Shown here one piece after another: positions 44,701-64,000 of a stretch of DNA of 64,000 nucleotides; position 1 is the stretch's first letter; every line of letters begins with the position of its first letter. The stretch covers positions 1 to 64,000 of the forward strand of contig JAIOYR010000011.1 in NCBI GenBank assembly GCA_021740995.1, read 5' to 3'. The notes beneath the pieces were generated by a model. That model was not told the origin of the DNA, ran no database searches, and saw only the letters and a list, made by a program, of their open reading frames with translations. The DNA is from Taibaiella sp. (GTDB taxonomy: Bacteria; Bacteroidota; Bacteroidia; Chitinophagales; Chitinophagaceae). The position numbers and the translations under genes are program-made.

Positions 44701-47700
44701 AGCGCGCCCTCAACAGCAAGCATTGGCACATCCAGCGGTATTGTGACCGGTGTTAATGATGGAAACGCTACTATTTCCTACACATTATCCGGCGACTGTA
44801 GGGTTACTGCAATAGTTACAGTAAACCCTGTACCGGATACGGGAACAATAAGTGGTGCAAACAACGTAAACAGAGGTGCAACTACGCTACTCACTGAAGA
44901 CGTGCCTGGCGGTGTGTGGAGCACAAGTAATGGCAACGCAAGTATCTCTTTAGGTGGTTTGGTAACGGGTGTTTCCGGTGGTGACGTAGTAATATCATAT
45001 GGAGTCACCAACGGTTGCGGCACACTATATGCTACCAAGAGTTTCAGAGTAAATGCAATTACAGATGCTATTTACGGACCGGCAATAATGTGTGTTGGTT
45101 TAGAATCTACGTTTAGCCATCCATTCACAGGTGGTACATGGAGCAGCAGCGATACCGCAATATTAACAGTTGATGAAACAACAGGAGAAGCAACTGCAGT
45201 TACCTCAGGGGTAGCTACAATATCCTACTTTGCTGACATGTCCTTCCAGACAAAATCAATAACTGTAAATACACCGATACCGGCAATAACCGGCAGTCCA
45301 TCTGTTTGTCTTGGAACTACCTTGGCTCTTAGCCATGCGTCTGAAGGGGGCATCTGGAGCACTACAATGGGGCATGTTGCAACAGTCAATTCAAGCACCG
45401 GCGTAGTTACACCCGTCACCTCTGGAGTTGTATTCATTACCTATACGCTAGGAACCGGTTGTCGTACTGTTCGCCTGTTCACAATCAATCCGCTACCAGG
45501 AGTTATATCCGGCAGTATGATCGTATGTCAGGGCAACACAACAACATTATCCTCATCTACTTTTAGTGGTGCCTGGACAAGCGGCACCCCGGCAGTAGCT
45601 ACGATAAATGTCAGCTCGGGTTTAGTCACAGGCATTAGCCCCGGCACAACTGCCATTACTTACACGGCACTTACAGGTTGCGTACGCAATGCAATAGTCA
45701 CTGTAAATGCACCGTTAGGCAGCATAACGGGTGATCCCCAGGTCTGCGTCGGCAATACAAATGCGACCCTGGTTGCTCCAACTCCCGGAGGCACATGGAG
45801 CAGCAGCAACGTCTCTGTTGTCACAGTGCATGCAATCACCGGTCTATTAACGGGTATCGGTTCGGGCACAGCCAACATCACCTACACAGCAGGTGCGGGT
45901 TGCATTACTACTACTATAGCAACAGTTAGTTCAGTGGCTGTAATAACTGGCAGCGACAATATGTGCGCCGGATCTGACATTACACTATCCAATGCTACTC
46001 CAGGCGGAGTATGGAGCAGCAGCAACACTACTGTTGCCACTGTAGTTGCAGGCACTGGAGTAGTAACCGGTGTAGCCGGAGGTACTGCTCACATATCTTA
46101 TGCATTGACTACTGGCTGTTATAAAACAAAACTTGTAACTGTAAATTCTCTTCCTAATAACATTAACGGAACGGCTATCCTATGCTCAGGCAACACTACG
46201 GCTTTGACTAATGCAACATCCGGTGGTACTTGGAGCAGCAGCACACCAGCAATCGCTACGATAGGTACAAGCGGTATTGTTTCCGGGGTTTCTGCAGGAA
46301 CATCAACCATTAGCTATACTCTCAGCACCGGCTGTAGAGCCACCAGAATCGTGACAGTTAACACCACGCCTGCAGTAATAACAGGTACAGGAATAATGTG
46401 CGCAGGAAACACTACTTCACTGAGTTCAGCCACTCCGGGAGGAGTATGGAGCAGTACCAACACTTCTATTGCAACCATAAATTCAGGTACCGGACTTGTG
46501 AGTGGAGTGAGTGGCGGCACCAGTACAATCAGTTACACAATCGGCGCATGCTTCAGAATATCAGTGGTAACAGTAACACCTTTACCCGCTACCATTACAG
46601 GTTTACTTGCATTGTGTGTTGGCAATACTTCCACATTGTTATCGGCCACAACCGGGGGAACCTGGGTAAGCAGCGATGTTTCTAAAGCTACTATCCACTC
46701 AACTACAGGTGTAGCTACCGGTATTGGTGCAGGTACTTCAAACATTACGTATACTAAGACTGGTTGCATCACAACTGCAGTCGTAACGGTAAGTACAGTA
46801 GCTGCAATTACCGGCACAGCAGTTCTTTGTCCGGGCAACACAACTACACTCGCTCATGTAACTCCGGGCGGCACATGGTCTAGTGCCAATACTGCAAGAG
46901 CAACTGTTGGTTCGGCTTCTGGCATCGTTACCGGCCTTAGCTCAGGTACAGTAAGAATCTCTTACATCCTCACTGGAGCATGTGCCCAAAGTATAGTAGT
47001 AACAGTAAATCCCCTACCAAATAGCATCTCTGGCACTCCTATTGTTTGTGTCGGTTCTACCTCTACCTTTTCCAGCACCACAGGTGGTGGTGTCTGGAGC
47101 AGCAGTACACCTGCAGTCGCTACTGTTAGTGTAGGCGGTGTAGTTACAGGAGCAGATGCAGGTACCAGCACAATAACTTACCAGTTGGCTACCGGCTGCT
47201 TTGCTACTAGAGTAGTAACAGTATCAGTTGCACCTGGTGCCATCACAGGCACTGCATCCGTATGCGTTGGCAGCACAACAGCTTTAAGTGCAACACCCGG
47301 AGGTGGTGTGTGGTCGAGCTCAAACATAACCAAAGCCACCATTGATGCCGGCACAGGTATAGCTACAGGTGTAGCTGCAGGAACTACTTTTATTACTTAC
47401 ACAATTGGATCATGCAGAAGCACCAGAGTATTAACTGTTCTTGCAACTCCGGGCGCAATAAGTGGGGCTTTATTAACATGTGCCGGAAGTACAACGCAAT
47501 TAGCATCTCCTACATTCGCCGGTGCCTGGAGCAGTACAGATGTAACAAAAGCAACAATACACCCTACTACCGGATTGGTAAGTGGTGTTGCCATAGGAAC
47601 ATCTACAATCAGCTACGTAGTAAGTGGCTGCGCAAGAACTGCAATAGTTACCGTGAATGCTGCAGTTGGTGCCATAACAGGCACTCCATTAGTATGTGTT

Positions 47701-48750: not shown

Positions 48751-49482
48751 CTATGAAATCTTGATTAGTGTCAATAATTCATCCCTGTATGCTTTTCCAA
48801 TAGGTATTTTGAAATTATTGACTAGAAGAAATTCGGAATTAATAGTCTCTACATGCTGCAAATTTACCGCAAAGCTTCTGTGAACCCTGAAAAAATTTCT
48901 GGATGCCAGTAACTCCAGATAGTCCTGCAGATTGCTTCTTACCATCATCTTGCTATCAGCCAGATGTACATTTATATAGTTGTTGTCACTTTCTATATAC
49001 AGGATGTCCTGAATTTTAATTTTGTTGAAGTATTGTCCGTTCTTTATAAATACCGAGTCATTTATCAGATAATTACCTTCAGTTACAACAGGCTGTTGCT
49101 TATGCATTGAAGCATAATTGTGTACGCATATCTCTATAGAAGTATAGAGGTCATGTTTGTTGTAAGGCTTTACCAGATAGGCATTAGGCGATACCTTTTT
49201 TGCCCTTTCTACAGTTGCTGCATCAGTATTGGATGTGAGGAAAATAAACGGAATTGTGTAATCCTTTCTCACTCGCCACGCCAGGTCTATCCCATCTTTG
49301 TAGCCGCCCAGTTGAATATCTATGAGCATAATATCCGGCTTCTCATTGGCAATGACATCTAATGCTTCAGTATAGTTTGAGGCAATACTGGTGATCTCAT
49401 ATCCCAGCTCTTTAAGCGCATCAGCTATGCTATACGCGATAATAAATTCGTCTTCTACGATTCCAACTTTGATAAATGACAT
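48751..49482 (-). CDS. LytTR-family response regulator
   Basis: A 243-aa two-domain regulator. The receiver (1-120) has the acidic pair E10-D11, phospho-acceptor D55 in IMLIDIQLGG, T83 and K105 in YLVKPYN. The LytTR DNA-binding domain (about 140-243) has IQDILYIESDNNYINVHLAD, MVRSNLQDYLELL and FFRVHRSFAVNLQHVETI, the classic LytTR sequence. LytTR proteins bind pairs of short direct repeats about two helical turns apart. It is downstream of the sensor kinase gene with a 74-base gap, so it is very probably its cognate regulator. The most attractive target is the direct repeat at 52751-52785. Confidence 0.93.
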   Translation of the reverse strand: MSFIKVGIVEDEFIIAYSIADALKELGYEITSIASNYTEALDVIANEKPDIMLIDIQLGGYKDGIDLAWRVRKDYTIPFIFLTSNTDAATVERAKKVSPNAYLVKPYNKHDLYTSIEICVHNYASMHKQQPVVTEGNYLINDSVFIKNGQYFNKIKIQDILYIESDNNYINVHLADSKMMVRSNLQDYLELLASRNFFRVHRSFAVNLQHVETINSEFLLVNNFKIPIGKAYRDELLTLIKIS

Positions 49483-49556
49483 ACTAACTCTAGATTAATA
49501 AACTGGTCAACACAAAGATAAAATATAAGTTGACGACTTAAGCATCTCCAAATCTA

Positions 49557-52500
49557 TCAGGCACTCTTTTTACGGTTAAGGGTATCCTTAAAGAACACAA
49601 CAAAAATACGCTCGTCCCTGTTGTAAGAAAAATACCCGCCAAGTTGCTTCGCAAGCCCATTAATTATCAGCATACCCAGACTACCTGCATTGCTTTCACC
49701 ATAATCCACGGGTAATCCATGGCCAAAATCTATATAGTCCAGTCTAAACAAATCACCATCTATGCTAAGGTTAATTACCATCTTATTGTTATCACCGATT
49801 CTGAATGTATACTTATACGAATTGGTCATCAGTTCATTAAGTATAAGTCCCATAGGAAGTGCAGTATCTATATCCAAAAAAGTCTCCGGAATGTTCGTTT
49901 CAAAGGATATAGATTGTCCCCTTTGCTGATAAATACCTGCTACTTGCTTATTGAGTTCTGCAACAAACTCACCAAACTCAATAGAGGTAAGATCGTCACC
50001 TTTATATAAATGCTGATGTATCAATCCTATAGAGCTGATTCTTGATATACCTTCCTCTATAGATTTTCTTGCCCGCTCATCATGTACATTTGCCAATTCC
50101 ATTTTCAGCAGCGAACTTATAATCTGAATATTGTTCTTCACCCTATGGTGAATTTCTTTCATCAGCACATCTTTTTGCCGGGTAGATAGCTGTAGATCTT
50201 TAATAGTATCTTCGAGCTCATTGGTTTTAGACAGTACTATTCTATCCAGTCTTTCATTCTCCTTTTTCAGACTATAAACCCGCCATTTGAACCATAACGC
50301 AAATGCCGAAATAATTGATGCTATAGTTAGCAATATGAACCAGCCTCGCAGGTAAAACGGTTTGTTGACACGAATGAAAAATAGCAGGTCATTGCCGCCC
50401 CAACTACCGTCGCTTGCCTGTGCTTTTATATGCAACTGATGGTTTCCATAAGGCAAACCGCTAATCCTCAATGATGGTTCACGTATGGTATTCCAGGCAG
50501 TGTCCACGCCCTCTATACGCCAGTAATAACTATTATGAATTACATCCGTATAGTTAAGCAATGCAAAGTTGATAGTAAAAAACCTGTCGCCCGGTTGAAG
50601 GGTAATTGTATTATTCTTCGAAAGCTTTGCAGTGAGGTCTTCAATAGTGTTAGTATTTCCGTTAAACTGTTCGAAAGAAGTAACAACAAGTGAAGCAATA
50701 TTGTTGGGATCTTCATAAACCGGAAAACTATCCGGATTAAAACAGGTTACACCATTTAGTGAGCCGAAATAAATGTTGCCCGATGAGTCCCGAAAATGTG
50801 ATATTCGATTAAACTCATTGTTGGTAATGCCATCGTCTGTTGTATAGGTTTTTACTGTGCCGCCTCGCTTTGAAAACTGTATTATGCCGAAATCGCTGCT
50901 CAACCACAACCTATCGTGCCTGTCTTCGTAAATAGCATAAATAGTATTGTTGCTTAATCCACTTTTACGTGTATAAAGTTTGTAAGTATTTCGGTCCTTT
51001 TCCCATTTCAATAGCCCACTCCCGGTCCCCAACCAAAATACCCCTGCTGCATCCTGATATAAAAAGTGAAATTCTTTTGCAGGTAAAAAATGTGTGCCAC
51101 TGTCTATATTTGAGTATCGGGCGGTAATACCTTTTTCTGAATTGTACATAAATAGACCCGCATTGCTCAGTATCCACTCCTGGCCATCCCTGTCTCTAAT
51201 AACACTGGTCACCATGCTCTCTCGCACCTCGTTGAAAGAACCGTACTTGCTTATAGGTGTAAAGTTGTTCTCCTTTCGCAGATACCATACAAGCCCCATA
51301 TTTGTGCCCAGCAAAAAACTGTCTTTTGATACCTGACGTATATACCAGCATTTGTAGTTATTGAAGCTGGCTGGCAATATCTGAAGCGTCCATTTATTGC
51401 TGCCTGGCTCCAATGAATAGCTATACTTGCTCTGCAAGCCGAACAGCCCCCCTTCCTTTGTGCTTGTCAGGACATATCCTCTTGATATCCCGGGCTTGTC
51501 ATAATGCAGGTCGACAATATTACTATTGCCAAGGTCCAACTGCTGCAGGCCCGTAAATTCATTCACAGTATACAGGCTACCATTGTGTACCGTAATATTC
51601 CGGAAACTATTGTGAAAGTTGCTGTCTTCCTGCCTGTAAAAGTACTTTTTGAATTTACTGCTCGTAAGCGACAACATGTACAAACCGAAATCACTACTTC
51701 CCCATATTCTGTTGTTTTTATCAATAATCTTTTGCCGGAACAAATCCATTCTTTCTCCTCTTTTGCCTTTTCCAAAATCTTTAAATACACCGAGCCTTGG
51801 ATGCCATAATTTCCCCTGGCGCCACAGAAAACTATCGATTCCGGCATAGGCAACGTAATCCCCTAATGTGGTATCTTCAGGTGGCAAAAGAGCTGAAAAA
51901 TCGGCAATGCCTAAGCCCGGCGATAACTGGTATACCTTTTCGGTGATGCTGTCCTGCAAAAACGCACCAAATCGGGGCGAGAAAGAATGTAGGTACCTAA
52001 CAACAAATGGGGCTTGCACTTGTTTTATTACTGCGCCATCCATATCAATTTCAAACAATTTTCTCTGAAATCCTTCGACAAAGAACGTACCCTTTTCAGT
52101 AGCACCCATCAATGTACGAACCCGAAGAGGCAACTTCAACTTTCTCAACCCGCGAACCGGGTGCCAGACAAAAAATAATTGCTCTTTCACATTCCCAAAA
52201 AACAACATACTGTCACCCGCATTTTCCATGAAAGTGGCTCTGATTTTGTCTGTGTAACCTGTCTTGTCTTTTAATGTGGCGACCTGTTTGGTAAGTGGAT
52301 CAAAGATGCAGATATTATTGTCGGTCAATTTTGGACCAAGTAACCATAATTCCCCATTAACATCGGTATTTGCCTGAAAAATTTGGTCAAATGGTAATTG
52401 GCTGTTTTCCGTGTTGTATACCTTGAACGTATACCCGTCAAATCGATTTAGACCATTCTTGGTACAGACCCAAATAATGCCATGCTTGTCCTGACATATA

Positions 52501-52637
52501 TCATTCACCAGACGGTCGCTAAGGCCATCCTTTGTTCCCCATGAATGGAGACGCATGCTGTACTCCTGAGCCTGCAAAGATTGGCTGCAGCATAGAAGCA
52601 CATACATTAGCACCCTGCCGTATAATGTTTGTGACAT
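49557..52637 (-). CDS. Sensor histidine kinase with two-component-propeller sensor domain
   Basis: A 1026-aa hybrid-style (but REC-less) sensor kinase. After a signal peptide ending near QSLQAQ come two-component-regulator-propeller repeats (GTKDGLSDRLVNDICQDKHGIIWVCTKNGLNRFDGYTF and similar), expected to form a periplasmic beta-propeller. Then follow a Y_Y_Y domain, a membrane helix (WFILLTIASIISAFALWF), a coiled coil, and a HisKA_2 domain with the phospho-His in MKEIHHRVKNN. The HATPase domain has the N box NELMTNSYKY and the glycine box DFGHGLP. Signal is unknown; propeller sensors often detect polysaccharide fragments. ATG 52637 is preferred over an in-frame ATG eight codons upstream. It is divergent from the second giant gene. 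Confidence 0.92.
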   Translation of the reverse strand: MSQTLYGRVLMYVLLCCSQSLQAQEYSMRLHSWGTKDGLSDRLVNDICQDKHGIIWVCTKNGLNRFDGYTFKVYNTENSQLPFDQIFQANTDVNGELWLLGPKLTDNNICIFDPLTKQVATLKDKTGYTDKIRATFMENAGDSMLFFGNVKEQLFFVWHPVRGLRKLKLPLRVRTLMGATEKGTFFVEGFQRKLFEIDMDGAVIKQVQAPFVVRYLHSFSPRFGAFLQDSITEKVYQLSPGLGIADFSALLPPEDTTLGDYVAYAGIDSFLWRQGKLWHPRLGVFKDFGKGKRGERMDLFRQKIIDKNNRIWGSSDFGLYMLSLTSSKFKKYFYRQEDSNFHNSFRNITVHNGSLYTVNEFTGLQQLDLGNSNIVDLHYDKPGISRGYVLTSTKEGGLFGLQSKYSYSLEPGSNKWTLQILPASFNNYKCWYIRQVSKDSFLLGTNMGLVWYLRKENNFTPISKYGSFNEVRESMVTSVIRDRDGQEWILSNAGLFMYNSEKGITARYSNIDSGTHFLPAKEFHFLYQDAAGVFWLGTGSGLLKWEKDRNTYKLYTRKSGLSNNTIYAIYEDRHDRLWLSSDFGIIQFSKRGGTVKTYTTDDGITNNEFNRISHFRDSSGNIYFGSLNGVTCFNPDSFPVYEDPNNIASLVVTSFEQFNGNTNTIEDLTAKLSKNNTITLQPGDRFFTINFALLNYTDVIHNSYYWRIEGVDTAWNTIREPSLRISGLPYGNHQLHIKAQASDGSWGGNDLLFFIRVNKPFYLRGWFILLTIASIISAFALWFKWRVYSLKKENERLDRIVLSKTNELEDTIKDLQLSTRQKDVLMKEIHHRVKNNIQIISSLLKMELANVHDERARKSIEEGISRISSIGLIHQHLYKGDDLTSIEFGEFVAELNKQVAGIYQQRGQSISFETNIPETFLDIDTALPMGLILNELMTNSYKYTFRIGDNNKMVINLSIDGDLFRLDYIDFGHGLPVDYGESNAGSLGMLIINGLAKQLGGYFSYNRDERIFVVFFKDTLNRKKSA

Positions 52638-52750
52638 TGAAAAAAAGAGAAAACATAACATTTACTATTTACAATTCCAAGCATTTTAAATACTATATTA
52701 TTTATAATATATACCCAGGCCGGACTTTCTAAAACCTCAAAAAGGTGCTT

Positions 52751-52840: not shown

Positions 52841-55800
52841 ATGAAACTACGTTTCCTGAATTACGCTAAAACTGCAGCTAGTGCTACCATCTGTACATTG
52901 CTTCTCATGCTTGCCGGTATGCTTGCAGCTACTTCGGCAAGTGCGCAGACGGTTCTCTATGCAGAAGGCACGGATATGGCCAACACAGGCGATGGCACGA
53001 CATACGACATAACCACACCGGGCACTTACCGCTGGACAGGCACGCTATCCACTCCATCCGATCAGCAAGACAGGTTTTCCATAAACCTGGGGAGTGGCGT
53101 GCAGATAAGCAGTGCGTCTTATACTATCAGCGGCGGCGCAGGTTTTAATGGCTCCTATGGATTCTACGTCAATTCGGCAAGCATCTCTGGCAATGGGTCG
53201 GCCGCCATGTCCAGCGGCATAGGTTTTCCCATGCCACCTATCTCTCCTGGTCCTTTCTATAACAACATATATATTGGCGCCAGCTTTTCGGTGGGCAATA
53301 CCTGGATAGTAGATATGGTAGTGACAGCCTATTGCACACCTCCTACTGTGGCTATAGCCATGAGCCCTTCCGGTACACTGTGCACCGGCTCATCCAAAAC
53401 ATTAACGGCCTCGGGGGCTACCACTTATACATGGGCGCCCGCCACAGGGCTAAGCGCCACCACAGGCGCCACAGTAACAGCATCGCCAGCATCCACGACT
53501 ACCTATACGGTAATAGGCACTACCGGCAGTTGCACCAATACCGCGACCAGAACAGTAACTGTGGCCACTTCACCAACCGTAACTACCTCCATTAGCCCGA
53601 CCGGAGCCATGTGCGCAGGTGAAACAAAAACAATTACCGCATCTGGCGCTACTACTTATATCTGGAGCCCTGCCACCGGTTTGTCGGCTACTACGGGTGC
53701 TTCTGTAACCTGTAGCAGCACGATTACCAGAACATATACGGTAACTGGGACTGCTGCAAATGGCTGTATTGATCAGGCGACCAGGATAATAAACGTAAAT
53801 GCAGTGCCAACAGCAACCATAGCAATGACCCCTACTGGAGCACTTTGCCCGGGCAGTTCCAAAACATTAACGGCCGGCGGTGCAACCACCTACACATGGG
53901 CACCTGCCACAGGCCTGTCTGCTACTACAGGAGCAAGCGTAACAGCCAGCCCTACCGCCACCACAACGTATACCGTTACCGGAACCACCAGTGGCTGTAG
54001 CGATGATGCTACAAGAACAATCACAGTAACCAATCCACCGGTAATTACATCAGTAAGCTCGCTGGTCGGTATTCCCGGCAATACCCGCACCATTACAGGC
54101 ACAGGGTTTAATGGCATTAATGCCAATAACATAGTATTTTTCGGTGCCACCCGTGCCAATGTTACAGGCTCTACTACTACTTCGCTCACGGCTACGGTGC
54201 CGGTAGGTGCTACCTACAAAGAGATAAGCCTCAACAACCAGAACTGTGGGCTGACAGGATATGCACAATATCCATTCCTGCCTACCTACAACAACAGTGC
54301 CTTTGCTTCGGGAAAGGTAAATTTTGCCGTTAAGCAGGATTTCACAGCAGGTAGTAATCCAACAAAAGTAGTCATAGGTGATATAGATGGAGATGGCAAG
54401 GCCGACCTCGTAGTGGCTAATCATTCGGACAATACTGTATCTGTATATCGCAACACGAGCAGTAGTGGCAGCATTACGAGTGGTAGTTTTGCCGCACAGG
54501 TAACATTTGCAACTGGTATAGCCCCGAATAGCGTTGCAATAGGCGACTTAGATGGTGATGGCAAGCCCGACCTGGTGGTGTCAAACTTTACTTCCAGTAC
54601 TGTATCGGTATTACGCAATACGAGCAGCAGCGGCAGCATTACGAGTGGTAGTTTTGCCACACAGGTAACATTCGCAACAGGGACATCCCCTAATAGCGTA
54701 GCTATAGGCGATATTGATGGGGATGGCAAGCCCGACCTGGCAGTGGCGAATTATTATTCCAATAATGTATCGGTATTACGTAATACCAGCAGCAGCGGCA
54801 GCATTACGAGCGGTAGTTTTGACTCGCAGGTCACATTCGCAACAGGGACCTTGGCCACTAGCGTGGCGATAGGCGATATAGACGGGGATGGTAAGCCCGA
54901 CCTGGCAGTAGCTAATGCAAGTTCCAATAATGTCTCGGTATTGCGTAATACCAGCACTAGCGGCAGCATTACCAGCGGTAGTTTTGCCACACAGGTAACA
55001 TTCGCAACGGGTAATGGACCCTATAACGTAACGATAGGCGATATAGACGGTGATGGAAAACCTGATCTGGCAGTGGCAAATCAAACTTCCAATAATGTAT
55101 CGATATTACGCAATACGAGCAGCAGCGGCAGCATTACAAGCGGTAGTTTTGACTCGCAGGTAACATTCGCAACGGGCGCACAACCCGTTAGTATTGCCAT
55201 AAGCGATATAGATGGAGATACCAAGCCAGACCTGGCAGTAGCTAACTATGTTTCCAGTAATGTGTCCGTATTGCGCAATACAAGCAGCAGCGGCAGCATT
55301 ACAAGTGGTAGTTTTGCCGCACAAGTAACATTCGCAACTGGTAACTTACCCTTTAGTGTAGCAATTGGCGATTTAGATGGGGATGCCAAGCCCGACCTTG
55401 TCACAGGCAATTTTGGTTCCAATAATGTATCCGTATTGCGCAACAACCCCTTATCTCTCATAACAGGCACCCTGTCTGCCTGCCCGGGCAGCGCCACCAC
55501 ACTAAGCAATGCTACCACTGGCGGTACCTGGAGCAGCAGTAATACGGCTATAGCTACAGTGGGCTCAACAACCGGCGTTGTTACAGGTGTTGCCGCGGGA
55601 ACAGTAACAATTACCTATGCGGGCACTGCTGGTGCCAGCTTTGCCCTTAACCGGGTCACCGCTACTGTTACTGTAAATGCCCTGCCCACAGTAGCAACAT
55701 CGGTCAGCGTTACGGGCCCTATATGTATGGGCTCATCAAAGACCATCACAGCCTCGGGCGCTACCACCTATACATGGGCACCGGCAACAGGCCTATCTGC

Positions 55801-58800
55801 TACTACGGGAGTTACCGTAACAGCCAGCCCCACGGTTACCACCACCTATACGGTAACGGGGACAACATTGGGCTGCACCGACCAGGCAACGCGGAACATA
55901 AACGTAAATCCGCTGCCAACAATAGATGCAGGCGCAGGGGTGGCTATATGCCGTGGTTCATCTACTGCTATTACAGCCACCGGCGGCGTAACCTATACAT
56001 GGGCGCCAAATACGGCACTCTCGGCCACTACAGGTGCCAGTGTGACTGCATCTCCGACAACAACTGTAACCTATACCGTCACAGGCACTGATGCCAATGG
56101 CTGCGTGAATACTGCTACCAAAGTAGTAACGGTAAACGTAGTACCAACTGTAACTACAACCATGACGCCAACAGGAAACCTGTGTTTGGGGTCCTCGAAA
56201 ACGTTAACCGCAGGCGGTGCGACAACCTATACATGGGCACCTGCCACCGGCCTGTCTGCTACTACAGGCGCAAGCGTAACAGCCAGCCCACTAGTCACCA
56301 CCACATATACTATAACAGGCACGAATGCAGCTGGCTGCAGCGATGATGCTACCAGAACAATAACAATTACCAACCCACCCGACATAACCTCAGTAAGTAC
56401 ATTAATGGGTATTCCAGGTACTGCTGTATCGCTTACGGGTACCGGCTTTAATACTACCCTTGCCAATAACATTGTGTACTTCGGCGCCACGCGTGCTACG
56501 GTGACAGCAGCTACTACTACATCGTTGACAGCTACCATACCGGTGGGGGCAACCTACAAAGAAATAAGCGTCAATAACCAGAATTGTGACCTGACAGGAT
56601 ATGCACAGTATCCCTTCCTGCCTACTTACAACAACAGTGCTTTTGCACCGGCAACGGTGAACTATAGCGCCAAAACAGACTTCGCAGCAGGCTTAGCCCC
56701 CTATAGCGTAGCGATAGGCGATATAGATGGGGATGGCAAGCCCGACCTGGCAGTGGCGAATGGTTTTGCCAATACTGTATCTGTTTATCGCAATACGAGC
56801 AGCAGCGGCAGCATTACGAGCGCTAGTTTTGCCACACAGGTTACATTTGTAACGGGATCTTATCCCTACAGCGTAGCTATAGCCGATATAGATGGGGATG
56901 GCAAGCCCGACCTGGCAGTGGCTAGTTATGGTTCCAATGGAGTATCGGTACACCGCAATACGAGCAGCAGCGGCAGCATTACGAGTGGTAGTTTTGCCAC
57001 ACACGTAACATTTTATACGGGTAACTACCCACGGAGCGTAGCCATTGGCGATATAGATGGGGATGGCAAGCCAGACCTGGCAGTGGCAAATGATATTTCT
57101 AATACAGTATCTGTATTACGCAATACCAGCAGCAGCGGCAGCATTACGAGCGGTTCGTTTGCCACACGGGTAACATTTACAACGGAACTCGATCCCTCTA
57201 GCGTAGCGATAGGCGATATAGATGGGGATGGCAAGCCCGACCTGGTAGTGACGAATGATGGTGGTACCCAAAAAGTATCTGTATTACGCAATACGAGCAG
57301 CAGCGGCAGCATTACCACAGGTAGTTTTGCCACACACGTAACATTTGCAACGGGAACCCGTCCCCTTAGCGTAGCGATAGGTGATATAGATGGGGATGGC
57401 AAGCCAGACCTGGCAGTGGCGAATTATAGTTCCAGTACAGTATCGGTATATCGCAATACGAGCAGCAGTGGCAGCATAACGAGCGGTAGTTTTGCCGCTC
57501 AGGTAACATTTGCAACTGGATCCCAACCCTATAGCGTAGCCATAGGCGATATAGATGGGGATGGCAAGCCCGACCTGGCAGTGGCAAATCAAACTTCCAA
57601 TAATGTATCTGTATTACGCAATACGAGCAGCAGCGGCAGCATTACGAGTGGTAGTTTTGCCACACAGGTCCCATTTGCAACTGGAACCAATCCCTATAGC
57701 GTAGCAATAGGCGATATAGATGGGGATGGCAAGCCCGACCTGGCAGTGGCGAATTATGGTTCCGATAATGTATCGGTATTACGCAATGATCCGTTATCAC
57801 CCATTACCGGCACCCAGTCAGTATGTTTAGGCGCTACTACTACGCTCAGCAATGCCGCCACAGGTGGCACCTGGAGCAGCAGCAATACGGCTATAGCTAC
57901 AGTAGCCTCTGCAACCGGGGTTGTTACAGGTGTTGCCGCAGGAACGGCGACCATCACCTATGCAGGAACTGCAGGGGCAAGTTTTGCAGGCAACCGGGTG
58001 ACCACTGTTGTTACTGTTAATGCACTGCCCACCATCAGCGCAGGCGCAGGTGTGGCTATATGCCGTGGTTCATCTACAACACTTACCGCCACAGGTGGTA
58101 CTACTTATACATGGTCGCCTAATACAGCATTGTCAGCAACAACTGGCGCAAGTGTAACGGCATCTCCAACTACTACTGTAACATACACAGTCACCGGCAC
58201 AAATGCCAGTGGCTGCAGCAATACGGCCACGAAGACAGTGACAGTAAATCCGCTACCCACCATCAGCGCAGGCGCAGGGGTGGCTATATGCCGTGGTTCA
58301 TCTTCAACACTTACAGCCACAGGTGGCGCCACCTACACATGGGCGCCGGGCACAGCACTCTCAGCCACCACAGGCGCGAGTGTAACTGCATCGCCTACTA
58401 CAACGGTAACTTATACCGTAACCGGCACAAACGCCAATGGCTGCGTGAATACTGCAACCAAAGTAGTAACCGTAAACGTAGTACCAACAGTAACTACAAC
58501 AATGACTCCTACTGGAGCACTTTGTCTGGGCAGTTCCAAAACATTAACCGCCGGCGGTGCAACCACCTATACATGGGCACCCGCCACCGGCCTGTCTGCT
58601 ACTACAGGGGCAAGCGTGACAGCCAGCCCAACCGTTACCACGATCTATACCGTAACCGGAACCACCAGTGGTTGCAGCGATGATGCTACAAGGACAATAA
58701 CCGTAACCAACCCGCCCGACATAACATCAGTAAGTACATTAGTGGGTATACCCGGTACCGCTGTATCGCTTACAGGTACCGGATTTAATGCCACTATTGC

Positions 58801-61800
58801 TAATAATATAGTCTTCTTCGGCGCCACCCGTGCTACGGTGACAGCAGCCACCACCACATCGCTGACGGCTACCATACCTGTGGGGGCTACTTACAAAGAA
58901 ATAAGCCTCAATAACCAGAACTGCCAGCTAACTGGCTATTCGCAATACCCCTTCCTGCCTACTTATGACAACAGTCCATTTATACCCGGAACGGTAAATA
59001 TGAACGGCAAGGTGGACTTTACCACCGGCACAAATCCTTTAAGTGTAGCCATCGGCGACCTGGATGGGGATGGCAAGGCAGACCTGGCGGTGGCTAATTA
59101 TATTTCCAATACCGTATCTGTTTACCGCAACATCAGCAGCAGCGGCGCTGTAACAGCAGCTTCGTTTGCGGCCAGGGTGGACTTTACCACCGGCACAAAT
59201 CCTTTAAGTGTAGCCATTGGCGACCTGGATGGAGATGGAAAGCCTGATCTGGTGGTGGCTAATTATGGTTCCGCTACCGTATCTGTTTTCCGCAACACCA
59301 GCAGCAGCGGCGCTATAACAGCAGGTTCGTTTGCGGCCAGGGTGGACTTTACCACCGGCTGGGATCCTCGCAGCGTAGCTATCGGCGACCTGGATGGGGA
59401 TGGCAAGGCAGACCTGGCGGTGGCTAATGCTAGTTCCACTACCGTATCTGTTTTCCGCAACACCAGCAGCAGCGGCGCTATAACATCCGGTTCGTTTGCG
59501 GCCAGGGTGGACTTTGCCACCGGCTCGGCCCCTCACAGTGTAGCCATAGGCGACCTGGATGGGGATGGCAAGGCAGACCTTGCGGTGGCTAATTTTAATT
59601 CCGGTACCGTATCTGTTTTCCGCAACACCAGCAGCAGCGGCGCTATAACATCCGGTTCGTTTGCGGCCAGGGTGGACTTTACCACCGGCTTCAATCCTTT
59701 TAGTGTAGCCATCGGCGACCTGGATGGGGATGGCAAGGCAGACCTGGCGGTGGCTAATTTTAATTCCGCTACCGTATCTGTTTTCCGCAACACCAGCACC
59801 AGCGGCGCTATAACATCCGGTTCGTTTGCGGCCAGGGTGGACTTTACCACCGGCACGGGGCCTTTATTTGTAGCCATCGGCGATCTGGATGGGGATGGCA
59901 AGGCAGACCTGGCGGTGGCTAATAATGGTTCCGCTACCGTATCTGTTTTCCGCAACACCAGCAGCAGCGGCGCTATAACATCCGGTTCCTTTGCGGCCAG
60001 GGTGGACTTTACCACCGGCACACAACCTCGCAGTGTAGCCATTGGTGACCTGGATGGGGATGGCAAGCCCGACCTGGCAATGGCGAATTATGGTTCCGAT
60101 AATGTATCGGTATTACGCAATAATCCGATATCACCCATTACAGGCACCCAGTCAGTATGTGTAGGCACAACTACTACGCTCAGCAATGCCGCCACAGGTG
60201 GCACATGGAGCAGCAGTAATACGGCTATAGCTACAGTGGGCTCAACAACCGGGGTTGTTACAGGTGTTGCAGCAGGAACGGTGACTATTACTTATGCAGG
60301 CACGGCAGGGGCAAGTTTTGCGGGCAACCGTGTGACCGCTATTGTGACTGTGAACGCAATACCTACCATAATTGCCGATGGTGGCACAAACTTGTGCATG
60401 GGCACATCAGCTACACTCACCGCCAGCGGTGGCACCTCTTATACGTGGGCTCCGGCTACCGGCCTGAGCGCCACTACAGGCGCCAGCGTGACTGCTACGC
60501 CCTACAGTGCTGTAACGTATACCGTTACCGGCACTACCAGCGGCTGCAGCAATACAGCTACAACAAGCATTACCATAACCAACCCTCCGGCCATTACATC
60601 TACCAGCGCATTGCTGGGCATACCCGGCACATCGGTAACCATAAACGGAACAGGTTTTAATACTACCGATGCTAATAACATTGTGTACTTTGGAGCTACC
60701 CAAGCTACGGTAACGGGTTCATCCACCACATCACTGACGGCTACCGTCCCTACAGGCGCCACTTATAAATCACTGAGCCTCAACAACCAGGATTGCGCGC
60801 TTACCGGGTACTCCCAATACCCCTTCCTGCCTACTTACAACAATAGTGCTTTTGCACCGGCTACCGTGAACTTTAACCCCCGAACGAGTTTCACTTCGGG
60901 AACCAGTCCCAATAGCGTAGCGATAGGCGATATAGATGGGGATGGCAAGCCCGACCTAGCAGTGACAAATAATGTTTCTCATACAGTATCTGTCTATCGC
61001 AATACGAGCAGCAGCGGCAGCATTACGAGTGGTAGTTTTGCCACACAGGTAACATTTGCAACGGAAATTGCTCCCGCAAATGTAGTGATGGGCGATATAG
61101 ATGGGGATGGCAAGCCCGACCTAGCAGTGACAAATTTTAATTCCAATATTGTATCCGTATTACGCAATACGAGCAGCAGCGGCAGCATTACGAGCGGCAG
61201 TTTTGCCGCCCAAGTACCATTTGCAACGGGAAGCCAACCCTTTGGCCTAGCGATAGGCGATATAGATGGGGATGGCAAGCCCGACCTGGCTGTGGCTAAT
61301 AGAAGTTCCAATACAGTATCCGTATATCGCAATACCGGCAGCATCGGCAGCATTACGAGTGGTAGTTTTGCCACACAGGTAACATTTGCAACGGGAACCA
61401 GTCCCAATAGCGTAGCAATAGGCGATATAGATGGGGATGGCAAGCCCGACCTTGCGGTGGCGAATTCTGCTTCCAATTCTGTATCGGTACTGCGCAATAC
61501 TAGCAGCATCGGCAGCATTACGAGTGGTAGTTTTGCCGCACAGGTAACATTTGCGGCGGGAAGCGGTCCATATGACGTTGCTATAAGCGATATAGATGGA
61601 GATGGCAAGCCTGAGCTGGTAGTGCCGAATTCTACTTCTAATTCAGTAGCCGTATATCGCAATACGAGCAGCAGCGGCAGTATTACGAGCAGTTCGTTTG
61701 CAGCACGGGTATCATTTGCAACTGGAACCAGTCCCGCAAGCGTAACGATAGGCGATATAGATGGGGATGGCAAGCCCGACATGGCAGTGGCGAATTATGA

Positions 61801-64000
61801 TGCTAATACCGTATCTGTCTATCGCAATACGGGCAGCATCGGTAGCATTACGAGTGGTAGTTTTGCCACACAGGTAACATTTGCAACGGGGACCAATCCA
61901 CATAGCGTAGCGATAGGCGATATAGATGGGGATGGCAAGCCCGACGTCGCGGTGGCGAATAGAGGTTCCAATACTGTTGCTATATATCGCAATAATCCGT
62001 TATCACCCATTACCGGCACCCAGTCAGTATGCGTAGGAGCTACTACTACGCTCAGCAATGCCACTACAGGCGGCAAATGGAGCAGCAGCAATACGGCTAT
62101 AGCTACAGTGGGCTTGTCAACAGGGGTTGTTACAGGTGTTGCAGCAGGAACAGTGACTATCACCTATGCGGGTACTGCGGGTGCCAGCTTTACGGGTAAC
62201 CGTGTGACTGCTATTGTGACAATAAATACTATACCAACTGTCACCGCCGGCTCAAATGTGACTATCTGCACCGGCTCATCCACAACGATGACCGCATCGG
62301 GTGCTACAACTTATACATGGTCGCCCGCAACCGGGTTGTCTGCCACAACGGGTGCAAGCGTAACAGCATCGCCTGCTACAACGGTAACCTATACCGTAAC
62401 CGGGTCGAATGGATGTACCAATACAGCTACAAAAACAGTAAGTGTCAATACTACACCAACCATCGCAGCAGGCTCAGGCGCAACAATTTGCCGGGGCTCA
62501 TCAACAACACTCTCTGCTAGTGGTGGCACTACTTATACATGGGCGCCTAATACGGCATTATCTGCCGCTACAGGTGCAAGTGTAACTGCATCGCCTACTA
62601 CAACGGTAACATATACCGTGACGGGAACCACCGACGGATGTAGCAGCACGGCTACACAAATGGTATCGGTGAACCCGCTGCCAACCATCAGCGCAGGTGC
62701 AGGGGTGGCTATATGCCGTGGTTCATCTACAACACTTACAGCCACAGGTGGCGCCACCTACACATGGTCGCCTAATACGGCACTCTCTGCCACCACAGGT
62801 GCCAGTGTGACTGCATCGCCTACCACAACGGTAACCTATACCGTAACCGGCACAAACGCCAATGGCTGCGTGAATACTGCAACCAAAGTAGTAACCGTAA
62901 ATGCGGTACCTACCATAACGCCCGGAAGTGCTGCAACTATCTGTAGTGGTGCTACGGCTGCGCTTTCGGCATCGGGTGCAAGCACTTATACCTGGTCACC
63001 TGCGGCTGATCTTTCAGCATCCACCGGAGCCAATGTTACCGCCTCACCTACTATTACTACCACCTACACGGTTACCGGTACAAATACTTTGGGTTGCAGC
63101 AACACCGCAACTCAGCTGGTTACTGTAAATGAACTTCCGGATGCCTTTACGGGTTCCACCACTATATGTGCAGGCAGCACCAGCACACTATCTTCAGCAC
63201 CGGGCGGTGGTGTATGGACAAGTAGCAATAATGCGATAGCTACTGTAGGCACAAGCTCAGGGATAGTCTCCGGTATAGCAGCGGGCACATCGAGCATTAC
63301 CTATACACTCGGCACAGGCTGCAGGCGCAAAGTGACAGTAACGGTAAATGCTGCTCTAACCATAAGTGCAGGCACAGGAGTAGCCATTTGTTCCGGCAAC
63401 AGTACTTCTTTAACTGCGACAGGAGGGCTAACTTATAGCTGGTCTCCGGCTACTGCTCTTTCGGCTACAACCGGAGCAAGTGTTACTGCTTCTCCTACCA
63501 CTACAGTTACTTATACCGTAACCGGTACTAATGCTAACGGCTGTGTGAATACTGCTACAAAAACAGTAACAGTAAATGCACTCCCAACCATAAGCGCAGG
63601 TACACAGTTGAACTTATGTATAGGTCAATCCTCAGCAATATCTGCTACAGGAGGCACTACTTATACCTGGTCGCCAGGCACAGGGCTTTCTGCAACCACG
63701 GGTGCCAGTGTAACAGCATCACCCACTACAACTGTAACATACACCGTAACTGGTACAAATGCCAACGGCTGCACAAACTTTGCTACAAAGCTGGTGTCGG
63801 TAAACCCATTGCCTACCGTTAGCGCGGGCGCGAACGTGGCAATATGCAGGGGTAGTTCTACAACTCTTAGTGCAACCGGAACAGGATCCACTTACACATG
63901 GGGACCTAATATCGGATTATCTGCAATAGCAGGTGCCAGCGTAACAGCAAGCCCTACAGTAACCATAACTTACACCGTAACAGCTATGCATAGCAACGGC
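52841..64000 (+). CDS. Giant multi-propeller surface protein (cut by right edge)
   Basis: The frame is open from ATG 52841 to the end of the window, 3720 codons, so the C-terminus (and any T9SS sorting domain) is missing. A long signal peptide ends near TSASAQ. After an N-terminal domain of about 125 residues with no match, the protein is a chain of cassettes: PKD-like units (CxGSSxTLTASGATTYTWAPATGLSATTGASV), a TIG/IPT-like domain (GIPGTxVxLTGTGF...NIVxFGATxAxVT), seven FG-GAP repeats (IGDIDGDGKPDLAVAN...VSVLRNTSSSGSI) and one Big_2-like domain. Four such cassettes are present, then more PKD-like units. FG-GAP repeats bind calcium and form integrin-like seven-bladed propellers. Adhesion is inferred. 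The nearby direct repeat and -7 box suggest control by the LytTR system. Confidence 0.87.
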   Translation, partial: MKLRFLNYAKTAASATICTLLLMLAGMLAATSASAQTVLYAEGTDMANTGDGTTYDITTPGTYRWTGTLSTPSDQQDRFSINLGSGVQISSASYTISGGAGFNGSYGFYVNSASISGNGSAAMSSGIGFPMPPISPGPFYNNIYIGASFSVGNTWIVDMVVTAYCTPPTVAIAMSPSGTLCTGSSKTLTASGATTYTWAPATGLSATTGATVTASPASTTTYTVIGTTGSCTNTATRTVTVATSPTVTTSISPTGAMCAGETKTITASGATTYIWSPATGLSATTGASVTCSSTITRTYTVTGTAANGCIDQATRIINVNAVPTATIAMTPTGALCPGSSKTLTAGGATTYTWAPATGLSATTGASVTASPTATTTYTVTGTTSGCSDDATRTITVTNPPVITSVSSLVGIPGNTRTITGTGFNGINANNIVFFGATRANVTGSTTTSLTATVPVGATYKEISLNNQNCGLTGYAQYPFLPTYNNSAFASGKVNFAVKQDFTAGSNPTKVVIGDIDGDGKADLVVANHSDNTVSVYRNTSSSGSITSGSFAAQVTFATGIAPNSVAIGDLDGDGKPDLVVSNFTSSTVSVLRNTSSSGSITSGSFATQVTFATGTSPNSVAIGDIDGDGKPDLAVANYYSNNVSVLRNTSSSGSITSGSFDSQVTFATGTLATSVAIGDIDGDGKPDLAVANASSNNVSVLRNTSTSGSITSGSFATQVTFATGNGPYNVTIGDIDGDGKPDLAVANQTSNNVSILRNTSSSGSITSGSFDSQVTFATGAQPVSIAISDIDGDTKPDLAVANYVSSNVSVLRNTSSSGSITSGSFAAQVTFATGNLPFSVAIGDLDGDAKPDLVTGNFGSNNVSVLRNNPLSLITGTLSACPGSATTLSNATTGGTWSSSNTAIATVGSTTGVVTGVAAGTVTITYAGTAGASFALNRVTATVTVNALPTVATSVSVTGPICMGSSKTITASGATTYTWAPATGLSATTGVTVTASPTVTTTYTVTGTTLGCTDQATRNINVNPLPTIDAGAGVAICRGSSTAITATGGVTYTWAPNTALSATTGASVTASPTTTVTYTVTGTDANGCVNTATKVVTVNVVPTVTTTMTPTGNLCLGSSKTLTAGGATTYTWAPATGLSATTGASVTASPLVTTTYTITGTNAAGCSDDATRTITITNPPDITSVSTLMGIPGTAVSLTGTGFNTTLANNIVYFGATRATVTAATTTSLTATIPVGATYKEISVNNQNCDLTGYAQYPFLPTYNNSAFAPATVNYSAKTDFAAGLAPYSVAIGDIDGDGKPDLAVANGFANTVSVYRNTSSSGSITSASFATQVTFVTGSYPYSVAIADIDGDGKPDLAVASYGSNGVSVHRNTSSSGSITSGSFATHVTFYTGNYPRSVAIGDIDGDGKPDLAVANDISNTVSVLRNTSSSGSITSGSFATRVTFTTELDPSSVAIGDIDGDGKPDLVVTNDGGTQKVSVLRNTSSSGSITTGSFATHVTFATGTRPLSVAIGDIDGDGKPDLAVANYSSSTVSVYRNTSSSGSITSGSFAAQVTFATGSQPYSVAIGDIDGDGKPDLAVANQTSNNVSVLRNTSSSGSITSGSFATQVPFATGTNPYSVAIGDIDGDGKPDLAVANYGSDNVSVLRNDPLSPITGTQSVCLGATTTLSNAATGGTWSSSNTAIATVASATGVVTGVAAGTATITYAGTAGASFAGNRVTTVVTVNALPTISAGAGVAICRGSSTTLTATGGTTYTWSPNTALSATTGASVTASPTTTVTYTVTGTNASGCSNTATKTVTVNPLPTISAGAGVAICRGSSSTLTATGGATYTWAPGTALSATTGASVTASPTTTVTYTVTGTNANGCVNTATKVVTVNVVPTVTTTMTPTGALCLGSSKTLTAGGATTYTWAPATGLSATTGASVTASPTVTTIYTVTGTTSGCSDDATRTITVTNPPDITSVSTLVGIPGTAVSLTGTGFNATIANNIVFFGATRATVTAATTTSLTATIPVGATYKEISLNNQNCQLTGYSQYPFLPTYDNSPFIPGTVNMNGKVDFTTGTNPLSVAIGDLDGDGKADLAVANYISNTVSVYRNISSSGAVTAASFAARVDFTTGTNPLSVAIGDLDGDGKPDLVVANYGSATVSVFRNTSSSGAITAGSFAARVDFTTGWDPRSVAIGDLDGDGKADLAVANASSTTVSVFRNTSSSGAITSGSFAARVDFATGSAPHSVAIGDLDGDGKADLAVANFNSGTVSVFRNTSSSGAITSGSFAARVDFTTGFNPFSVAIGDLDGDGKADLAVANFNSATVSVFRNTSTSGAITSGSFAARVDFTTGTGPLFVAIGDLDGDGKADLAVANNGSATVSVFRNTSSSGAITSGSFAARVDFTTGTQPRSVAIGDLDGDGKPDLAMANYGSDNVSVLRNNPISPITGTQSVCVGTTTTLSNAATGGTWSSSNTAIATVGSTTGVVTGVAAGTVTITYAGTAGASFAGNRVTAIVTVNAIPTIIADGGTNLCMGTSATLTASGGTSYTWAPATGLSATTGASVTATPYSAVTYTVTGTTSGCSNTATTSITITNPPAITSTSALLGIPGTSVTINGTGFNTTDANNIVYFGATQATVTGSSTTSLTATVPTGATYKSLSLNNQDCALTGYSQYPFLPTYNNSAFAPATVNFNPRTSFTSGTSPNSVAIGDIDGDGKPDLAVTNNVSHTVSVYRNTSSSGSITSGSFATQVTFATEIAPANVVMGDIDGDGKPDLAVTNFNSNIVSVLRNTSSSGSITSGSFAAQVPFATGSQPFGLAIGDIDGDGKPDLAVANRSSNTVSVYRNTGSIGSITSGSFATQVTFATGTSPNSVAIGDIDGDGKPDLAVANSASNSVSVLRNTSSIGSITSGSFAAQVTFAAGSGPYDVAISDIDGDGKPELVVPNSTSNSVAVYRNTSSSGSITSSSFAARVSFATGTSPASVTIGDIDGDGKPDMAVANYDANTVSVYRNTGSIGSITSGSFATQVTFATGTNPHSVAIGDIDGDGKPDVAVANRGSNTVAIYRNNPLSPITGTQSVCVGATTTLSNATTGGKWSSSNTAIATVGLSTGVVTGVAAGTVTITYAGTAGASFTGNRVTAIVTINTIPTVTAGSNVTICTGSSTTMTASGATTYTWSPATGLSATTGASVTASPATTVTYTVTGSNGCTNTATKTVSVNTTPTIAAGSGATICRGSSTTLSASGGTTYTWAPNTALSAATGASVTASPTTTVTYTVTGTTDGCSSTATQMVSVNPLPTISAGAGVAICRGSSTTLTATGGATYTWSPNTALSATTGASVTASPTTTVTYTVTGTNANGCVNTATKVVTVNAVPTITPGSAATICSGATAALSASGASTYTWSPAADLSASTGANVTASPTITTTYTVTGTNTLGCSNTATQLVTVNELPDAFTGSTTICAGSTSTLSSAPGGGVWTSSNNAIATVGTSSGIVSGIAAGTSSITYTLGTGCRRKVTVTVNAALTISAGTGVAICSGNSTSLTATGGLTYSWSPATALSATTGASVTASPTTTVTYTVTGTNANGCVNTATKTVTVNALPTISAGTQLNLCIGQSSAISATGGTTYTWSPGTGLSATTGASVTASPTTTVTYTVTGTNANGCTNFATKLVSVNPLPTVSAGANVAICRGSSTTLSATGTGSTYTWGPNIGLSAIAGASVTASPTVTITYTVTAMHSNG
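54320..55450 (+). repeat. FG-GAP array 1 (seven repeats)
   Basis: Seven DxDGDxxxD repeats at about 166-base spacing. Repeats 6 and 7 have altered calcium loops (DIDGDTKPD and DLDGDAKPD). Confidence 0.85.
56665..57790 (+). repeat. FG-GAP array 2 (seven repeats)
   Basis: Seven repeats, all with DIDGDGKPD, at 161-170-base spacing; first motif near 56718, last near 57714. Confidence 0.85.
58995..60125 (+). repeat. FG-GAP array 3 (seven repeats, distinct subtype)
   Basis: Seven repeats of another subtype (GDLDGDGKADLAVAN, VSVFRNTSSSGAI, FAARVDFTTG), more alike to each other at the DNA level than in the other arrays. The seventh repeat switches to the array-2 subtype from about 60055. Confidence 0.85.
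60880..61995 (+). repeat. FG-GAP array 4 (seven repeats)
   Basis: Seven repeats of the array 1/2 subtype. The fifth has DGDGKPE in place of DGDGKPD, and the sixth has PDMAVAN. Confidence 0.85.

Follow-up and report, generated by a model that had tools for sequence, protein, structure and literature searches.

Why should a single gene carry four arrays of calcium-loop repeats with seven repeats in each, and what would such a protein do? The question is raised by the far end of the window (the whole stretch of DNA analysed here, 64,000 nucleotides of the Taibaiella sp. contig C57), where an open reading frame starting with an ATG at position 52841 on the forward strand continues beyond the window end and is still unclosed when the contig stops at 64427, by which point it encodes 3862 aa. 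The explanation which we think probable, although well short of certain, is that this is a giant cargo of the type IX secretion system (T9SS), in which four closed VCBS propellers on Ig-like spacers and a stalk would make up a modular protein that binds multivalently and with diversified specificity.

Four arrays in one giant reading frame

An earlier note on this DNA had described four tandem cassettes, each with seven FG-GAP repeats preceded by a TIG-like and followed by a Big_2-like domain. A motif search found 28 DxDGD motifs in the frame, seven in each of four arrays (54380-55370, 56720-57713, 59057-60047 and 60929-61919), and an iterated blade profile again gave 7, 7, 7 and 7 blades, so the count of seven was kept after profile alignment in all four arrays. 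The motifs are spaced 55 aa apart, with a spacing of 56 after blade 4 of array 2, where there is one residue extra. The Pfam family FG-GAP_3 (PF13517) matches the whole protein with an E-value of 3.6e-257 (831.9 bits against a cut-off of 26.9, 29 stretches), which means that the repeat arrays are not due to chance, and it matches array 1 alone in 7 stretches.

The domain order is a signal peptide (recognised by eye), an N-terminal domain with no family above cut-off in Pfam (GldM_2nd is below its cut-off) and none in NCBIfam, cassettes 1 to 4, and then a stalk of Ig_7 and Big_2 domains (Table 1). In the motif scan, cassettes 1 to 3 each consist of three Ig_7 units, TIG, seven blades and Big_2, while the spacer of cassette 4 has one Ig_7 (the TSYTW unit, which lies outside the motif-scan pattern and was read from the translation), giving 3, 3, 3 and 1 Ig_7 units per spacer. 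The families that Pfam finds around the blades are TIG (PF01833), Big_2 (PF02368) and Ig_7 (PF19081), with TIG of cassette 1 and Big_2 after arrays 1 and 3 tested as separate segments. The FG-GAP_3, TIG and Big_2 models thus all match, TIG precedes and Big_2 follows each array, the propellers are separated by Ig-like spacers as the note had it, and its cassette starts and lengths agree with ours to within a few tens of bases. It had also given cassette 4 two fewer PKD-like units, of which the number stands (one versus three) and the name does not, as the units score as Ig_7 and PKD_6 remains below its cut-off.

Table 1. Features of the giant reading frame (positions in the window unless given for contig C3)
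Feature	Position	Strand	Evidence
N-terminal part with ATG start and apparent signal peptide (by eye)	52841..53320	+	translation
Cassette 1 spacer, three Ig_7	53330..54030	+	PF19081, 3 stretches; motif scan
TIG domain 1	54035..54295	+	PF01833, E 8.5e-7
Propeller 1, seven blades, seven DxDxDG loops	54302..55445	+	motif search, blade profile, Pfam, strand/loop check
Big_2 domain 1	55460..55655	+	PF02368, E 2.8e-6
Cassette 2 spacer, three Ig_7	55673..56370	+	motif scan; whole-protein PF19081
TIG domain 2	56375..56635	+	alignment; TIG and propeller stretch 75% identical to that of cassette 3
Propeller 2, seven blades	56642..57788	+	motif search, blade profile, strand/loop check
Big_2 domain 2	57800..57998	+	motif scan; best PF02368 stretch of the protein
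Cassette 3 spacer, three Ig_7	58010..58707	+	motif scan; best PF19081 stretch of the protein
TIG domain 3	58712..58972	+	alignment
Propeller 3, seven blades, most homogeneous array (blade cores mean 80% aa identity)	58979..60122	+	motif search, blade profile
Big_2 domain 3	60137..60332	+	PF02368, E 1.2e-5
Cassette 4 spacer, single Ig_7	60344..60580	+	sequence
TIG domain 4	60584..60845	+	alignment
Propeller 4, seven blades	60851..61994	+	motif search, blade profile, strand/loop check
Big_2 domain 4	62009..62204	+	best PF02368 stretch within 62000-64000
Ig_7 stalk with one more Big_2	62210..64000, on to contig end 64427, probably C3:1-4530	+	Pfam, motif scan, overlap

The C-terminus, which the earlier note expected from an extension of the contig, does not lie on C57 itself, where the frame is open at the end, but is probably supplied by contig C3 (L010), which appears to continue the gene to a total of about 5,300 aa. 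Bases 1-223 of C3 are 94% identical to the last 223 bases of C57 (210/223, 13 mismatches) with all 74 encoded residues the same. Elsewhere in the genome, the closest counterpart to the terminal 240 bases of C57 reaches 75% identity. An overlap with 13 silent mismatches suggests either mixed strains or a second near-identical unit in this assembly (97% complete, 4.6% contamination). The region C3:1-4530 contains more Ig_7 and Big_2 domains followed by a T9SS type A sorting domain, and this C-terminus scores 41.1 bits with NCBIfam TIGR04183 (cut-off 23) and 22.4 bits with the Pfam sorting-domain model PF18962, below the cut-off of 27. The genome has the T9SS translocon component SprA (TIGR04189, 2449 bits) and 150 sorting-domain matches (150/197 candidates scored), and the protein is probably exported as type IX secretion cargo, to be displayed on the cell surface or released.

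Probable ring closure and blade number

The DxDxDG cation loop of VCBS blades is loop AB, located between strands A and B according to the available part of Pereira and Lupas 2021 (PMC8023676), and it is intact in all 28 blades here and in 1204 of the 1218 blades overall, with all seven loops intact in 160/174 arrays. Strand D is found in blades 1 to 6 of each array of this protein, is missing after blade 7 in all four, and a strand-D-like stretch is present ahead of blade 1, again in all four. In the complete set of 174 arrays a strand D follows blade 7 in 53, versus 162 to 167 for the other blades. A comparable arrangement was predicted for integrin propellers, where the fourth strand of the last blade comes from before blade 1, a feature which the accessible text of Chouhan et al. 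2011 (PMC3192720) calls non-specific. Both the blade count and the strand-swap pattern fit closed rings, and judged by sequence the four calcium-stabilised propellers proposed earlier are probably closed.

What is not supported is that they are integrin-like in the strict sense. With the register set by alignment to integrin alpha-IIb, Phe-Gly before strand 1 was found in 0/28 blades here and 1/1161 overall, and Gly-Ala-Pro after strand 2 in 0/28 and 0/1154, respectively. Lacking the residues after which the FG-GAP repeat is named, the present propellers belong to the VCBS type, which is akin to the integrin type but does not carry the residues that define it. Further relatives of solved structure, judged by sequence, are cartilage acidic protein 1, a secreted esterase and YesW/YesX. 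The bacterial integrin-type domains share seven repeats, a calcium motif per blade, tandem copies in some proteins and the origin of the last blade's fourth strand, but, as described in the available text of PMC3192720, they differ from the present protein in having FG/GAP and two tandem copies, compared to four rings without FG/GAP and with TIG, Ig_7 and Big_2 companions here. Closer are the VCBS-core propeller proteins (PF13517), which in the available text of PMC8023676 have the DxDxDG motif in loop AB, a signal sequence, several propellers and Ig-like companions; that text already outlines secreted proteins in which one chain combines multiple VCBS propellers and Ig-like domains, so the earlier note's impression of an undescribed architecture is not supported.

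To compare blade numbers, relatives were found with peptide patterns from the TIG part and the best 80 of 165 (75 distinct loci) were used, a sample which hence favours close relatives with this TIG. Regular-expression counts gave 3 to 7 blades per array with weak blades missed, and profile counts were used instead, dropping open frames of <250 aa and arrays with fewer than three detected blades. Seven blades were counted in 41/41 arrays of at least three blades when this protein was combined with 20 regions of relatives, hand-picked among the best matches. Of 142 arrays located away from sequence ends (75 loci, named genomes), 140 have seven blades, one has fourteen and one has five, i.e. 7 or 14 in 141/142, or in 136/137 distinct arrays once the overlap between L063 and L096 (five arrays doubled) is taken into account. 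The fourteen-blade array (L099) represents two rings with no gap in between. A further 11 arrays, which touch a sequence end, were counted separately (four with 3 blades, two with 4, one each with 5 and 6, and three with 7). Seven blades is the rule among the relatives sampled, and where the available part of Pereira and Lupas 2022 (PMC9218822) likewise describes blade amplification within one propeller, the repetitive VCBS propellers there vary in blade number (median 6), whereas nearly every array in our sample has seven. Such a near-strict number makes these proteins a natural case for testing whether ring closure is what fixes the repeat number. In the five-blade array (L101), degenerate blades may have escaped detection.

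The number of propellers is much less constrained, with 40 of the 80 frames containing one array of exactly seven, 37 containing two or more, and three containing none (including the fourteen-blade case), so that chains with 2 to 9 propellers are common among the sampled relatives. Matches at 1e-20 were obtained in at least 101 of the 294 genomes of the family to which the window's genome belongs (at most five candidates scored per genome). Loci L063 and L096 form one gene (CAIJXT010000025.1, 165140 to beyond 180350) with nine TIG-propeller units in a row and Ig_7-like repeats after the last unit. Two further matches (L118 and L129) are in MAGs labelled Gammaproteobacteria and Verrucomicrobia, reflecting either transfer or wrong binning.

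Diversified positions within the blade

Within the 55-residue blade, columns 6, 7, 9, 29 and 30 stand out as variable. This was first seen in the present protein, and when it was excluded, 37 arrays of relatives gave the same top five by nonsynonymous change (0.63 to 0.68), with column 10 coming next at 0.62. For arrays 1 to 4 of this protein, respectively, pN at the hot columns (pN_hot) is 0.67, 0.62, 0.56 and 0.60, pS is 0.54, 0.26, 0.23 and 0.33, and framework pN is 0.12, 0.10, 0.05 and 0.11. The corrected ratios dN_hot/dS are 1.75, 4.09, 3.79 and 2.79, those of dN_core/dS are 0.14, 0.34, 0.20 and 0.28, and when columns were bootstrapped, pN_hot failed to exceed pS in fractions of 0.0195, 0, 0 and 0.0015 of the replicates. 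Synonymous change at the hot codons themselves (pS_hot, few sites) amounts to 0.57, 0.39, 0.49 and 0.25, and with this as yardstick the excess shrinks to about 1.6, 2.4, 1.3 and 4.0; part of it may reflect an older age of the loop codons after conversion of the framework. Among the 174 distinct arrays, pN_hot exceeds pS in 57 of the 59 with pS <0.6 (these 59 include the four arrays here and some of the 37 from relatives), and in 20/21 with pS <0.45. These rates were obtained by counting methods with one genome per species and with relatives chosen by similarity, and the per-column statistics were restricted to arrays of seven, or of fourteen split in two.

Loop DA', ahead of strand A, contains columns 6 to 9, while loop BC, after strand B, contains columns 29 and 30, and from the four-strand topology all five hot columns should be on the face opposite the calcium. 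In this protein mean pN is 0.36 in loop DA' (columns 5-10) and 0.40 in loop BC (columns 29-33), versus 0.03 in loop AB (columns 15-22) and 0.05 in loop CD (columns 40-49). Columns 9 and 29, although 20 residues apart, co-vary within blades to an extent reached in none of 200 within-array shuffles (157 of the 174 arrays, 145 column pairs tested, uncorrected), and columns 31 and 32 co-vary less strongly with column 6 of the next blade (1 and 2 of 200 shuffles), as expected if the loops touch. S, N, T, G and Y are abundant among the hot residues, with Tyr making up 9.2% at hot positions versus 1.1% in the framework, and the aromatics F, W and Y reaching 31% at column 9 and 28% at column 29. The hot-residue signatures are distinct in all 28 blades here, and 173/174 arrays have seven distinct ones. 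Our literature search, which covered few subscription journals, turned up no publication describing such diversification in FG-GAP/VCBS blades; the available text of PMC8023676 states neither the seven blades per ring nor the five hypervariable positions per blade on one face by which the present protein differs from the VCBS-core proteins.

The blades also carry traces of how the arrays came about. Blade DNA identity is 0.78 within a propeller and 0.71 between propellers, and there is little position signal across the four propellers (0.713 for the same versus 0.709 for different positions, permutation p 0.087), which argues against a recent whole-propeller duplication as the source of the four arrays. 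Conversion between neighbouring blades was also rejected, with adjacent blades being no more alike than others (0.608 vs 0.605). When 46 proteins of relatives with two or more arrays were compared (three gave no value), blades within an array were more alike than different-position blades of different arrays in 33, and same-position blades were more similar than different-position blades in 32, both mostly with small margins. Concerted evolution with uneven conversion, whereby frameworks are overwritten, loops escape mechanically and the high ratio is an artefact of age, would be in line with the within-propeller identity, the weak position signal and the raised pS at hot codons in arrays 1 to 3. 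The tracts would, however, have to miss codons 6, 7 and 9 yet cover codon 8 (Pro in 27/28 blades), and miss codons 29 and 30 yet cover codon 28 (Asn in 27/28), and because these constant codons lie beside variable ones the pattern asks for selection; we regard uneven conversion as quite unlikely.

Whole-propeller copies are recent in some relatives (L066 and L052), and in L066 same-position identity is 0.89 versus 0.67, with pN_hot 0.39, pS 0.15 and framework 0.05. Of three such copies made within a protein, two had pN_hot above pS, the third having 0.42 vs 0.44. A different picture comes from the 16 position-matching pairs of different proteins, where pN_hot was below pS in 14 and above it in 2, which speaks against a continuing arms race. 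At least 77% of the hot residues were kept in 8/16 pairs, which does not fit simple drift; three of these eight are from one Pedobacter genome pair and one (L058) represents neighbouring genes on one contig, and not every one of the 16 represents a clean or independent orthologous pair (L069 and L091 are from one MAG). A position-matching orthologue of the present protein was not found among the relatives (best excess 0.031). Residues that diversify from blade to blade and from copy to copy, and in many cases are retained afterwards, fit specificity positions better than drift or an arms race. Loci L111 and L115 have nearly identical second propellers (pS 0.06) and diverged first propellers (pS 0.58) in otherwise corresponding proteins, and exchange of a single propeller between them is possible.

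Drift is nevertheless what would be expected if the loops opposite the calcium were unimportant and the protein were a structural spacer or stalk under relaxed constraint, and many arrays of relatives are indeed saturated, with pN_hot near or below pS. We consider this very unlikely, since dN_hot exceeds dS in 4/4 arrays here and pN_hot exceeds pS in nearly all low-pS arrays, contact-face residues are kept better than synonymous sites in many of the position-matching pairs, four of which retain hot residues far beyond drift (pN_hot 0.06 to 0.10 at pS 0.35 to 0.69), and loop CD, which is likewise a loop, is nearly constant here. Concentration of the variation in a few codons per repeat could also be the outcome of programmed hypermutation of these codons, for instance by a diversity-generating retroelement, but the 97%-complete assembly yielded no reverse transcriptase (PF00078, RVT_1) and half of the position-matching pairs preserve most of these residues, making this explanation extremely improbable.

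A predicted multivalent binder and its known counterparts

In the reading that we prefer, and which seems the simplest, rigid discs, each with a single diversified face, would be strung on Ig-like spacers to form an exported protein for recognition or adhesion. The calcium loops (AB and CD) would stiffen one face of each propeller and the opposite face, formed by loops DA' and BC, would be the contact face, with some 35 diversified positions per propeller. Blades would spread and be homogenised within a propeller, propellers would at times be copied whole, and the contact residues would diverge after copying and often then be kept, so that the chain would act as a multivalent binder with propellers differing in what they touch. 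The ligands would most likely be surface glycans or proteins of neighbouring cells or particles, a guess as to type made by analogy with family relatives and from the S/N/T/G/Y-rich residues.

A rival possibility is a multivalent lectin of one specificity, in which every blade binds the same sugar and the copies give avidity, as in the seven-bladed lectins of the PVL/PLL type. The VCBS propellers include the PVL lectins, and in the available text of PMC8023676 the related propellers of PVL and tachylectin-2 have loop DA' in the binding site, where it helps to form the sugar pocket; the share of aromatics at columns 9 and 29 would also suit a lectin. However, each of the 28 blades has its own set of contact residues, and a GW motif in loop DA' was recognised (by eye) in just 1/28 blades, so that even a glycan ligand is only a guess although PVL uses DA'. 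The multi-domain giant chain also sets the present protein apart from PVL and tachylectin-2. We regard a lectin of one specificity as unlikely.

The diversified binder that we favour has a counterpart in the fungal HNWD/NWD NOD-like receptors, which in the accessible part of PMC4986451 combine concerted repeat evolution with diversified positions on the interaction surface (four per repeat). The present protein likewise combines a homogenised framework with diversification at a small number of positions in each repeat, but differs in using VCBS blades in fixed number and in being apparently exported, compared to WD40 repeats of variable number in NOD-like receptors, and also in that half of the position-matching pairs retain most of their hot residues. 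A NOD domain was absent from the protein at E 0.01 (Pfam shows FG-GAP, TIG, Ig_7 and Big_2), and the HNWD-like variation of repeat number between relatives was not seen in either blade count (41/41 and 141/142). More generally, the Bacteroidota may use one to nine rigid seven-bladed propellers per chain as a recognition scaffold, comparable to antibodies or HNWD, with a fixed calcium face, about 35 diversified and then kept positions per propeller and a blade number set by closure, so that each exported chain would carry several distinct recognition discs; this extension we put forward tentatively and with more doubt than confidence. If our reading of the present protein is right, five columns per blade would be enough to identify the probable contact residues of a propeller, individual propellers could be tested separately for binding, a large and little-studied class of Bacteroidota proteins would become readable, and repeat frameworks with diversified contact positions, such as those of the fungal HNWD receptors, would gain an exported bacterial addition.

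Long open frames also lie antisense to the arrays (59533-60066 and 60994-61782, reverse strand), which mirror the repeats and are probably not genes. The adjoining gene on the forward strand (35704-48615, 4303 aa) encodes another giant T9SS cargo with tandem repeats of another kind; numerous Big_2-like units, recognised by eye, come next, and then a sorting domain that scores 36.6 bits with TIGR04183. The reverse strand in the interval separating these two genes carries a response regulator and a sensor kinase (48751-52661; Reg_prop, Y_Y_Y, HisKA_2), which might regulate both of their giant neighbours.
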